Part shown: one piece after another, positions 26,040-53,115 of the stretch | Position numbering within the stretch: the stretch's first letter is position 1 | Layout: each line of letters starts with the position of its first letter | Assembly (NCBI GenBank): GCA_023251075.1 | Contig: JAHEZM010000016.1 | Coordinates: forward strand, 1 to 64,000 | From: Flavobacteriales bacterium | GTDB lineage: Bacteria > Bacteroidota > Bacteroidia > Flavobacteriales_C > GCA-002722245 | Length of the DNA stretch: 64,000 nucleotides | Direction of reading: 5' to 3' | Made by a program: the position numbers and the translations under genes | The notes under the pieces: model-generated | What the model was told of the DNA's origin: nothing | Seen by the model: only the letters and a program-made list of their open reading frames with translations | The model's database searches: none

Positions 26040-26609
26040 ATGCAGGATATTCTCGACGACATCGACTTTAATAAAACAACGAGAAAAATGGAATTCGCTA
26101 GTTTCGGACAACGAGCCGGAGCTGCAATAATCGACACATTAATTATTATTATCAGTTACTACGCGATCTTTTTAATTCTTGAAATTTTATTGGATGATGA
26201 AGTTTCATCATCCGTTAATACCGACAGAGGCTTAATGTTTAGCACTTCCTTCGGTAACAATTTTAGCTTAGGAATAATTACATACTTTATTTTTCTCCTC
26301 TTGATCATTCTTTACTACTCCATAATGGAATCATGTAAAACAAAAGGAACTTTGGGGAAAATGGCACTTGGAATAATTGTAGCCAGAAAAAATGGTGATA
26401 GAATTTCTTTCGGAAGAGCACTCGCAAGATATTTCTCCAGAACCATTTGGTTTTTTGTTGCACTGTTAACAGCAATGATTCTGCATCCGGCACTGGCTTC
26501 TATTGTAGGACTGATTACTATGCTGGTGATTTTCATTCGACCTTTGTGGGATGATGTTTGTCAGGGTTTACACGATAGAATCTGCGGAACCTACGTTTTT
26601 AAAAAGTAG
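26040..26609 (+). CDS. RDD-family membrane protein
   Basis: A protein of 189 residues with the RDD signature: FGQRAGAAIIDTLII starts the first membrane helix, GTLGKMALGIIV lies between helices, and FGRALARYFSRTIWF precedes the last helices. RDD proteins are inner-membrane proteins; some have been linked to ion exchange, but the function here is unknown. It converges on the MoxR cluster, whose other flank carries a second RDD gene (32935). Its stop codon lies inside a palindromic repeat. Confidence 0.85.
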   Translation: MQDILDDIDFNKTTRKMEFASFGQRAGAAIIDTLIIIISYYAIFLILEILLDDEVSSSVNTDRGLMFSTSFGNNFSLGIITYFIFLLLIILYYSIMESCKTKGTLGKMALGIIVARKNGDRISFGRALARYFSRTIWFFVALLTAMILHPALASIVGLITMLVIFIRPLWDDVCQGLHDRICGTYVFKK

Positions 26610-26698
26610 AGACGAAATGCTTTCGTCTTAAATAGAAAATCTACCACTGGTTTGAAAATGTAATTAATCTTTTTAAGACGAAAGCATTTCGTCTCTAC
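26606..26698. repeat. Palindromic REP-like element between convergent genes
   Basis: Two 26-base arms (26606-26631 and 26673-26698) are perfect inverted copies 41 bases apart. Each arm is itself a hairpin: AGACGAAA TGC TTTCGTCT. The unit starting GTAGAGACGAAATGC resembles the short GTAGAGACG palindromes scattered through many Bacteroidota and cyanobacterial genomes. It fills the whole gap between the RDD and DUF58 genes and overlaps the RDD stop. Confidence 0.85.
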
Positions 26699-32934: not shown

Positions 32935-33663
32935 TTGAAAACCATCGATATACAAACCACACAAAAGGTAAGTGTTACTTACGAAATTGCTTCTTTTTGG
33001 CAGCGATTACTGGCTTTGCTAATTGATTTGGTTCTGGTAACTGTAGCCAGTTTAATTATCGCGTTCTCTATCTTTTTAATTTTTGGAGAAAATAAAGCCG
33101 CACGATTTATCGCTGTATTAATCATTATAGCCATTATATATCTACATTGTTTAACCTGTGAAATTATATTTAGAGGTCAAACATTAGGAAAATATGCCCT
33201 GGGTATTAAAGTTGTAAAATTGAATGGCACCAAACTAAAAGGAATCGATTGCACTATTCGCTGGTGTTTCCGATCCATAGATGTGTTTCTGTCTTTAGGT
33301 AGCATTGCTGCTGTTACTATGAACTCTACCAATAAAGGACAAAGACTGGGTGATTTACTAGCCAATACTTCGGTAATAAAATCAAAAACCGATCGGAAAA
33401 TAAGATTAGATGATATTCTTTCTATAAAAACTACCAGTAATTACAAGCCAGTTTATCCTGTTGCCAAAAACTTTAAAGAGCAAGAAATGCTTTTGATCAA
33501 AGATGTTTTAGACAGAAACAAAAATTATCCTAGCGAAGCCAACGAAAAAGCATTGAATGAACTTTTAAAAATAGTATTAGAAAAAACCGATTTACCTGTT
33601 CCTAAAAACAAAGTGCAGTTTTTAAATACACTCATCAAGGATTACATCGTATTAACGAGGTAA
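32935..33663 (+). CDS. RDD-family membrane protein (second copy)
   Basis: A protein of 242 residues. The start is TTG at 32935, supported by the family-like N-terminus KTIDIQTTQKVSVTYEIAS. The RDD region is FWQRLLALLIDLVLVTVA, GQTLGKYALGIKVV and IRWCFRSIDVF, with about three membrane helices. The C-terminal ~90 residues are a soluble helical extension that the other RDD protein lacks. It diverges from the SpoIIM gene with only 23 bases between starts. RDD next to SpoIIM is the usual order in Bacteroidota. Confidence 0.85.
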   Translation: MKTIDIQTTQKVSVTYEIASFWQRLLALLIDLVLVTVASLIIAFSIFLIFGENKAARFIAVLIIIAIIYLHCLTCEIIFRGQTLGKYALGIKVVKLNGTKLKGIDCTIRWCFRSIDVFLSLGSIAAVTMNSTNKGQRLGDLLANTSVIKSKTDRKIRLDDILSIKTTSNYKPVYPVAKNFKEQEMLLIKDVLDRNKNYPSEANEKALNELLKIVLEKTDLPVPKNKVQFLNTLIKDYIVLTR

Positions 33664-33674
33664 TCTCCCCTTCT

Positions 33675-33930
33675 CCTTCCCGTCATTGCGAGATTTTTGT
33701 ACCCAAAAAAAGAAGCAATCTTATTCATCAAAAACTTCAGTAAATTGCCGTCGGTTTTAACCGACGGATTTGATTGTTTTCATAATAAGGCTTTAGCCGA
33801 ACAATATTTTTTGGCTAAAGCCCTGTATGTGTTCTTTTTTCCGTCGGTTAAAACCGACGGCAATTGAAATTAAAAACATTATAAAATTGCTTCTTTTTTG
33901 AATACAAAAATCTCGCAATGACAGGGAAGG
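33675..33930. repeat. Three-tier nested inverted repeat
   Basis: Outer arms 33675-33719 and 33886-33930 (45 bases each, few mismatches) contain GTCATTGCGAGATTTTTGTA. Middle arms 33743-33768 and 33840-33865 are 26-base perfect complements, each itself a hairpin (CCGTCGGTT TT AACCGACGG). The inner arms GGCTTTAGCC (33789-33798) and GGCTAAAGCC (33813-33822) form a third hairpin. The element fills the gap between the convergent RDD and TIGR02757 genes. The unit types resemble dispersed intergenic repeats of Bacteroidota. Confidence 0.88.
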
Positions 33931-33940
33931 CTGATTTTAT

Positions 33941-34702
33941 CTATATTTCATCATTCACACCCAATCCAAATAAAGAGAAATCATATTTCACAGGATCTTT
34001 CGCATCGAATTTTCGCAAGTGATTCATTAGTTCTTCCAATGCCTGCCAATCATTAGGAGTTCTTTTGATTAGTCCGAGTTTACGCGCAACATTTCCTGTA
34101 TGCACATCCAGGGGACAATACAACTGAGAAGGATCAAGCATTTTCCATATTCCAAAATCAACACCTCGGCCATCATTTCTCACCATCCAACGTAAAAACA
34201 TATTGAAGCGTTTGGCTGAAGAACCAGTTATTGGATCGGGTAAATGCTTTTCCGTTCTAGCTAAATGTTTGGTTTCAAAAAACTTCTTTTTAAAATCACT
34301 TATCGCTTGTTGCATATCTCCTTTATAGCACGATGCAAAGAAAACTTCCAAGCCTTTTTCATTTTTGTAAATCTCTTGTAAGCGTTGGAGGAAAAAGATA
34401 CAATCATCACCATTAAAAGTTCGGTGCACAAATTTTTTAAAGCGTTTTAAATCTGAAGAATGGTGTGAAATAATAAAATCGTGCGGTGAACCATCCATTA
34501 AATCCATCAACTTAAAACCATTATTAACTATCGTTTTTCTTTGTCCCCATGCAAAAACAGAAACTAAAAACGCAGCAATTTCCACATCTTCTTTTTTCGA
34601 GAAAGAATGTGGAATGGCAATAGGATCTTGTGAAATAAAATCAGATGAATTGTATTGAAGAAATTTAGAATCTAAAAGATCCTTTAAATCTACTTTTCTC
34701 AT
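33941..34702 (-). CDS. TIGR02757 (DUF2400) protein
   Basis: This 253-residue protein has the family blocks DPIAIPHSFSKKEDVEIAAF at the start, FAWGQRKTIVNN, and LRWMVRNDGRGVDFGIW and LDVHTGNVARKLGL later. The fold is related to helix-hairpin-helix DNA glycosylases such as endonuclease III, but the enzymatic role of TIGR02757 is not established. It overlaps hemF by four bases as the last gene of the guaA operon. Confidence 0.88.
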   Translation of the reverse strand: MRKVDLKDLLDSKFLQYNSSDFISQDPIAIPHSFSKKEDVEIAAFLVSVFAWGQRKTIVNNGFKLMDLMDGSPHDFIISHHSSDLKRFKKFVHRTFNGDDCIFFLQRLQEIYKNEKGLEVFFASCYKGDMQQAISDFKKKFFETKHLARTEKHLPDPITGSSAKRFNMFLRWMVRNDGRGVDFGIWKMLDPSQLYCPLDVHTGNVARKLGLIKRTPNDWQALEELMNHLRKFDAKDPVKYDFSLFGLGVNDEI

Positions 34703-52909: not shown

Positions 52910-52969
52910 AACCTCTACCATGAATTGGAAATAAGGAATCAGAGCAATTCGAACAACTAAAATTTAATA

Positions 52970-53083
52970 TATAGGACAATAGTTCCTTCGTGCCTCAGAA
53001 TGACAACCACTCTCAAAACTCACTCTCAATCTGTGTTTGGGTGTGGTTGTCATTCTGAGGCACGAAGGAACTATCGTCCTATA
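52970..53083. repeat. Large inverted repeat in the gap before the GT39 gene
   Basis: Arms 52970-53010 and 53043-53083 are 41 bases each with one mismatch, separated by 32 bases. The unit contains TTCGTGCCTCAGAATGACAA, a type of dispersed intergenic repeat seen in many bacterial genomes. It lies between convergent genes and could form a long hairpin in either transcript, but has no T-run. Confidence 0.85.
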
Positions 53084-53115
53084 CATAAAACTGGAATCCT
53101 TATATGAAGTCCACC

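Follow-up and report, generated by a model that had tools for sequence, protein, structure and literature searches.

REPINs, as Bertels and Rainey are said to have described them in 2011, are reportedly non-autonomous single units with GTAG tags, in which two opposite REPs form a hairpin. Bacterial REPs have two great superfamilies, one of them the CGTC REPs, which have been found in five phyla (with Rickettsia, Wolbachia and Neisseria among their carriers), have TGTC and CCTC as tag variants and were published as lacking a dedicated enzyme, what spreads them being left open in the parts of the survey drawn on here (Di Nocera et al. 2013, PMC3733652). The same parts describe TIRtrons, in which a tyrosine transposase gene (TIRYT, RAYT-like) lies inside double palindromic ends that also occur dispersed, and two REP dimers nested with a second palindrome, GTAG-15 of A. 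variabilis and CGTC-1 of H. neapolitanus, where the REP dimer lies inside an outer palindrome with no partner known there. Subclass 1.2 of the TnpA-Y1 transposases is recognized by the motifs DH[IV]H, WQ and Y---Q--HH (Table 1 of Quentin et al. 2018, PMC6006769, likewise used in part) and is said there to be generally without terminal secondary structures, which is a description and not a defining motif.

In the window, that is, the whole stretch of 64,000 nucleotides analysed (Flavobacteriales bacterium, contig JAHEZM010000016.1, positions 1 to 64,000), a nested inverted repeat at 33681-33923 forms a 245-base hairpin in the gap between two convergent genes, an RDD-family gene (+) and a TIGR02757/DUF2400 gene (-); a first-pass annotation of this DNA had proposed such a nested repeat between convergent genes. 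The dimensions given by that annotation also stood: its outer arms of 45 bases correspond to 33679-33710/33894-33925 (32 nt, 91% complementary) extended by 33706-33724/33881-33899 (19 nt, 95%), jointly ~45 nt at 33679-33724/33881-33925; its middle arms of 26 bases lie at 33743-33768/33840-33865 (26 nt, 100% complementary); and the layers, held to be symmetric about one point, centre at ~33802, 33804 and 33806, a common centre within 4 nt. The inner arms (33789-33805/33806-33822) are 17 nt long and 88% complementary, with GGCTTTAGCC and GGCTAAAGCC at their ends. We read this element, with a probability of about 0.72, as two unrelated non-autonomous mobile repeats nested in one another, a CGTC-type REP pair outside and a gene-less subclass 1.2 element inside; the anatomy, the copy numbers, the occurrence of each unit alone, the enzyme genes inside matching ends in relatives and the empty site are direct observations. 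The features are as follows.

32935-33663, + strand: left neighbour, RDD-family gene, outside the element
33681-33724, + strand: left outer arm, with CGTC tag at 33681-33684, ATTGC / ATTTTTG-TACC-CAAAAAA / GCAAT hairpin and CTTAT edge
33725-33747, + strand: left linker TCATCAAAAACTTCAGTAAATTG, common to most composite copies
33748-33767, no strand: palindrome P1, CCGTCGGTTTTAACCGACGG
33768-33840, - strand: core between P1 and P2, flipped relative to the linkers when compared with 15 other arm-context copies
33789-33822, no strand: innermost hairpin, GGCTTTAGCC - 14 nt loop - GGCTAAAGCC
33841-33860, no strand: palindrome P2, CCGTCGGTTAAAACCGACGG
33861-33880, + strand: right linker CAATTGAAATTAAAAACATT
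33881-33923, - strand: right outer arm, inverted, with tag TGTC at 33920-33923
33941-34702, - strand: right neighbour, TIGR02757/DUF2400 gene, outside the element

The fold of the element is not chance, because its DNA folds at -82.4 kcal/mol against -24.5 +/- 3.5 kcal/mol in 200 shuffles (z -16.4); the RNA fold gave z -18.7. Each outer arm is a hairpin in its own right and carries its CGTC or TGTC tag on the outside, the CCGTCGG 'arms' are 20-nt palindromes when taken singly, and the linkers between the layers are asymmetric, so that the element has a direction. Rfam families were considered and rejected, since all 17 weak matches fell below the gathering score and were taken as chance on a long hairpin. 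Elsewhere in the window lie an inverted repeat at 26606-26698 (31 nt arms, 97%, 31 nt apart) and another long one at 52963-53090 (55 nt arms, 91%, 18 nt apart), the latter including GTCATTCTGAGGCACGAAGGAAC, which looks like a dispersed repeat of another kind.

Searched against its own genome, the element gave 75 matches, both strands counted. This genome holds 18 copies of the innermost hairpin and 41 CCGTCGG-type palindromes (<=3 mismatches), and such palindromes adjoin the innermost GGCTTTAGCC hairpin in 18/18 cases; layers 2 and 3 are therefore one unit, and the element is composed of two units, not three. The three repeat types of the first-pass annotation thus persist as three levels but not as three units, and its idea of growth by repeated insertion keeps the insertion into a loop but shrinks to a single nesting step, because the innermost layer never stands alone. 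Its expectation that layers recur singly holds for the outer pair and for the middle and inner layers together (C7 and C25), but not for the innermost one, whilst its alternative, one mobile unit, is compatible with an insertion after which the composite spread. Outer-arm context, with common linkers, was found for 16/18 inner units (nine two-armed composites, six one-armed or damaged and one cut by a contig end), C7 and C25 being the two copies without arms. Core-less outer pairs are present elsewhere in this genome and in the congeners G001, G002 and G003; a search of the congener genomes found no outer arms in G004. The core has one orientation relative to the linkers in 15/16 arm-context copies, and the sole flipped one is the window copy, whose core is identical to the cores of C24a and C42a. 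The flip is best explained by inversion between P1 and P2, which could turn the core around because they are inverted copies of each other.

Arms are more alike within pairs than between pairs (21 pairs, permutation p 3.5e-4; by type, p 5e-5 for 9 composites and p 0.13 for 12 outer-only pairs). Template switching would give such likeness, and a nested palindrome could in principle have grown in place through replication slippage and template switching with no mobile elements involved. However, the same units recur, partly letter for letter, at unrelated sites and in other genera; these dispersed copies refute growth in place as a full account, and we regard it as highly improbable.

The empty site that the first-pass annotation had proposed to look for in relatives exists in congener G001, where the element is absent and the two neighbour genes, in unchanged order, have next to no spacer between them. 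At 21 places orthologous to seven other composites in three congeners, the core was absent from all 19 that were readable, two falling at contig ends. An outer pair alone lies directly behind the gene at two of these places (L302 and L318), which were matched by that one neighbour and therefore do not prove stepwise nesting; at a third (L306) an arm fragment lies 372 nt further on. A precise empty spacer in G002 (L289), the best of 40 comparisons (20 spacers x 2 linkers) at p 0.003 uncorrected, is only suggestive. Convergent ORFs, by simple ORF calling, flank 12/17 core-bearing sites judged, and one terminator-like site was seen against 0.3 expected, as would suit a structure kept for a host function (a two-way terminator or a guard of mRNA 3' ends between convergent genes) and of only incidentally mobile origin. 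Such a function as the main explanation is nevertheless quite improbable, given that G001 lacks the element at the window site, that arms are lost or damaged in 6/16 copies and that copies adjoin unrelated genes.

Two Y1 genes, C38 and C36, are present in the genome of the window (G000). The first-pass annotation had pointed to a REP-associated tyrosine transposase (TnpA_REP, RAYT); Y1 genes do exist and C38 lies beside these repeats, but the partner of the inner unit belongs to subclass 1.2 and is not a strict TnpA_REP/RAYT. A CCGTTGG form of the palindrome with GGCTTTAGCC lies just upstream of the C38 transposase, and another half inner unit lies beyond a tandem array upstream of the gene; the 3' side of the C38 element lies off the contig. 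The array (L052, 525-868) consists of ~52-nt units between the two half inner units. C38 matches ISHp608-type transposases in the PDB, and its translation contains DDHIH, SWQDD and YIYNQESHH, in line with the DH[IV]H, WQ and Y---Q--HH motifs; it thus resembles subclass 1.2, as far as PMC6006769 was drawn on, in its HUH and Y---Q--HH signatures, its size and its occurrence in Bacteroidetes.

In autonomous relatives the transposase gene occupies the loop of the innermost hairpin and is enclosed by two nested palindromes (L117, L122, L127 and others). Parabacteroides gordonii shows the order P-G-transposase-G'-P' at one locus (L222), with P and G sequences exactly as in the window and, enclosing these, a third palindrome that is of GGCTTTAGCC type. 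Another locus (L214) has a three-tier form that lacks the gene. The three-tier nests of these two loci differ in make-up from the window element. Because matching nested-palindrome ends enclose a transposase gene in relatives, the inner unit, which has the same ends as the gene-bearing element with the gene missing, is best read as a gene-less form of an IS200-like TnpA-Y1 subclass 1.2 element. The arrangement is like that of the TIRtrons, except that the enzyme is of class 1.2 and not RAYT-like (PMC3733652, in part).

The Y---Q--HH signature was found in 28/29 class homologues of the transposase. A strong hairpin lies <=150 nt upstream of the gene in 22/29, downstream in 17, on both sides in 12 and on at least one side in 27/29, against 7.8% of 345 control windows, and an inverted repeat across the gene exceeded the 95% level of mismatched loci in 10/29. 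Here, then, C38 and the homologue loci depart from the published picture of subclass 1.2, in which flanking REPs or terminal structures are generally absent (PMC6006769, in the parts used): most members have gene-flanking hairpins, and gene-less copies are numerous in the window's own genome. The P..G motif occurs widely in named Bacteroidota and Ignavibacteria genomes (90 stretches). In 80 of these stretches 84 pattern matches were counted, of which 26 are gene-less, 5 adjoin a transposase, 5 lie at contig edges and 48 were left unclassified. The RAYT gene G000:C36 (REP_Tyr_transpos) was rejected as a partner, its ends being a different, unrelated inverted repeat; this second Y1 gene, with subclass 2.6-like motifs, sits inside its own long double-hairpin inverted repeat (L032, 1180-1910). 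A Y1 gene of G001:C95, considered for the outer arms, has a single arm on one side only, and no link was taken.

Among the five congeners, the subclass 1.2 transposase and the P palindrome alike were found only in G000 and G001; the transposase was not found in G002 and G003, where outer pairs are abundant, and hence outer pairs spread without it. This bears on whether the Y1 transposase alone moves the composite as a single unit, with the outer arms carried passively, as the presence of the transposase in the window's genome and the one core-linker arrangement in 15/16 arm-context copies might suggest. Core distances and right linker-plus-arm distances were moreover uncorrelated (Mantel r -0.04, p 0.62, 14 composite copies, with C26w and C41 left out), so that arms and cores were not simply copied together, and we consider transport by this enzyme alone unlikely. 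The missing correlation could reflect arm-to-arm homogenisation or repeated insertion.

The outer unit, which also occurs alone in the window's genome and three congeners, is a head-to-head pair of CGTC-type REPs. It is like the published CGTC head-to-head dimers in its tags (CGTC left, TGTC right), in a stem that begins with complementary A and T (ATTGC/GCAAT in the window arms; of 18 other arms, 10 keep the first stem pair and all 18 keep the next four), in inverted pairs with the tags outside, in its intergenic position and variable spacers and in its occurrence in Bacteroidetes (Di Nocera et al. 2013, PMC3733652, in part). It is unlike them, in the same parts of PMC3733652, in that an internal loop breaks the stem (5 bp, internal loop, 7 bp, the inner part being variable), in the inner element within its spacer and in the bracketed GIY-YIG genes, which are not reported there. 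As the continuous stem of CGTC REPs (8-9 bp, 4-5 nt loop) is lacking, the arms are termed CGTC-type and are not members of the CGTC REPs. A strict CGTC detector (stem of at least 7, <=1 mismatch), which does not fire on arms of this class, accordingly had no match in the window and gave no difference from control windows in the class-wide GIY set (p 0.11); an exact fixed-gap arm pattern was too strict as well (2 hits). Relative to GTAG-15 and CGTC-1, the nesting is reversed, the REP dimer being the outer part and the inner part belonging to a transposase family. Like REPINs, the window element is non-autonomous with opposed REPs in a hairpin, but it nests two systems; its arms lack the GTAG tag, and the REP_Tyr_transpos gene C36 has other ends.

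Pairing in the arm hairpin is kept through double changes, with 21 cells changed on both sides against 5.6 +/- 1.8 in shuffles, counted on 18 arms of the window's genome in an alignment that left out the window's two arms, mixed-hairpin arms and arms not 38 nt long; the predicted hairpin is supported by these compensatory changes. Two outer pairs bracket small ORFs of 106 and 109 aa with no Pfam match (L152, 1042-1514; L085, 1500-1940) and are REP pairs with a different cargo.

Among the congener loci read, no Y1 gene lies between two arms; GIY-YIG genes do sit there. Some congener outer pairs have long spacers, one of which encloses a GIY-YIG gene, and searching the genus for PF01541 yielded 21 hits; with UvrC set aside, 16 remained, of which 5 have arms on both sides, within ~110 nt of the domain. 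We then took 33 GIY genes, namely the best 30 loci of a 395-genome class search plus three genus loci; as these 30 rank highest by similarity to a bracketed gene and are no random draw, the ranking favours bracketing in the counts obtained, which were arm motifs in either flank of 23/33 genes, in both flanks of 17/33 (15/27 outside the genus) and tags outward on both sides of 11/33. Control ORFs gave 0/18 for both flanks and 5/18 for either in the same loci, 0/46 and 1/46 in 24 congener loci, and 0/125 for either flank in 56 loci chosen for Y1 genes. In these 56 loci an inverted repeat (score of at least 34) was found at 15/125 ORFs, the Y1 genes for which they were picked having inverted-repeat ends. 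VY, Y.G, Arg and Glu, the residues of a GIY-YIG site, are kept in eleven proteins. Arms beside the GIY genes of G001 and G002 (L327, L331 and L344) match dispersed arms of their own species exactly or with one change, and those of G001 also have exact counterparts among the dispersed arms of the window's genome; the outer unit has the same ends as the gene-bearing element, as expected of its gene-less form.

A GIY-YIG protein search of plasmids gave 32 records, with hits in Sphingobium, Azospirillum lipoferum, Sinorhizobium meliloti, Novosphingobium aromaticivorans and Neisseria among them, all listed as CGTC-positive in the part of PMC3733652 used. Fifteen of the 32 records were read, one per distinct locus as judged from the listing, and the inverted repeat across the gene exceeded shuffles in 11/15, many of these repeats being hairpins of CGTC-ATCCTCGGGC type; it was not above shuffles in four (Sinorhizobium K101, Rhizobium tumorigenes, Aeromonas and Photobacterium). 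The strict CGTC detector found REPs in both flanks at 5/15 of these loci and in at least one at 9/15, against 4/51 control windows; classical CGTC REPs bracket GIY-YIG genes on alphaproteobacterial plasmids. On a Planktothrix plasmid (L380), GTCATTCTGAG-type repeats surround a GIY-YIG gene that is flanked by MmeI-type and DISARM genes; they may represent a further REP family partnered by such a gene. No paper linking CGTC REPs with GIY-YIG genes was found in the open-licence PMC literature, and PMC9465073 gives, in the part used, a gene list without that link.

From these gene neighbourhoods, the partner of the outer unit is probably a GIY-YIG nuclease and not a tyrosine transposase, and we infer that this nuclease would move the REPs. 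It seems to us an even chance that CGTC REPs are the gene-less remains of a mobile element with a small GIY-YIG nuclease as its sole gene, so that an HUH and a GIY-YIG system would be stacked in the window hairpin. The GIY-YIG genes might instead be passengers, homing-type nuclease genes that settle in REP pairs as safe intergenic sites while something else moves the repeats: unrelated small ORFs also lie inside outer pairs (L085 and L152), 10/33 GIY genes have no such motif nearby, and the window's genome has REPs with no bracketed GIY gene. We consider this doubtful in view of the contrast of 17/33 GIY genes with 0/18, 0/125 and 0/46 other ORFs, of the same pattern with classical CGTC REPs in alphaproteobacteria and of the match between gene-flanking arms and the species' own dispersed arms. 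Neither of the two small GIY genes in the window's genome is bracketed by arms, and the outer pairs of this species may therefore be relics or depend on an unbracketed GIY gene.

Returning to the reading as two nested mobile repeats, an inner unit would most likely have inserted between the arms of an outer pair, in one or a few events, after which the composite would have spread in its own genome, chiefly into gaps between convergent genes; this order of nesting events is deduced. IS200 enzymes cut at hairpins on single-stranded DNA, and the Y1 transposase would in the same way cut single strands at the hairpins of the inner unit and so move it. The GIY-YIG nuclease would cut at or near the CGTC arms, and repair would then copy the repeat. 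Repeat presence appears to follow the enzymes across the congeners, since the P palindrome and the subclass 1.2 transposase share their restriction to G000 and G001, and in G004 the arms and a bracketed GIY gene are both absent. Counted against the account are the lack of correlation of core with arm distances, the departure from the strict CGTC definition, the unbracketed GIY genes in the window's genome, the unrelated ORFs in some outer pairs, the merely suggestive empty spacer of G002 and the position of the 3' side of C38 beyond the contig.

The bracketed GIY-YIG genes provide a named, testable candidate for the spread of CGTC REPs and, if this proves true, the engine of such a REP system would be a homing-type nuclease and not an HUH transposase. 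For the subclass 1.2 transposases, an unassigned group, the nested-hairpin ends are a likely substrate. Ultimately, the composite indicates that two repeat systems relying on different enzymes can fuse into one and be dispersed jointly.
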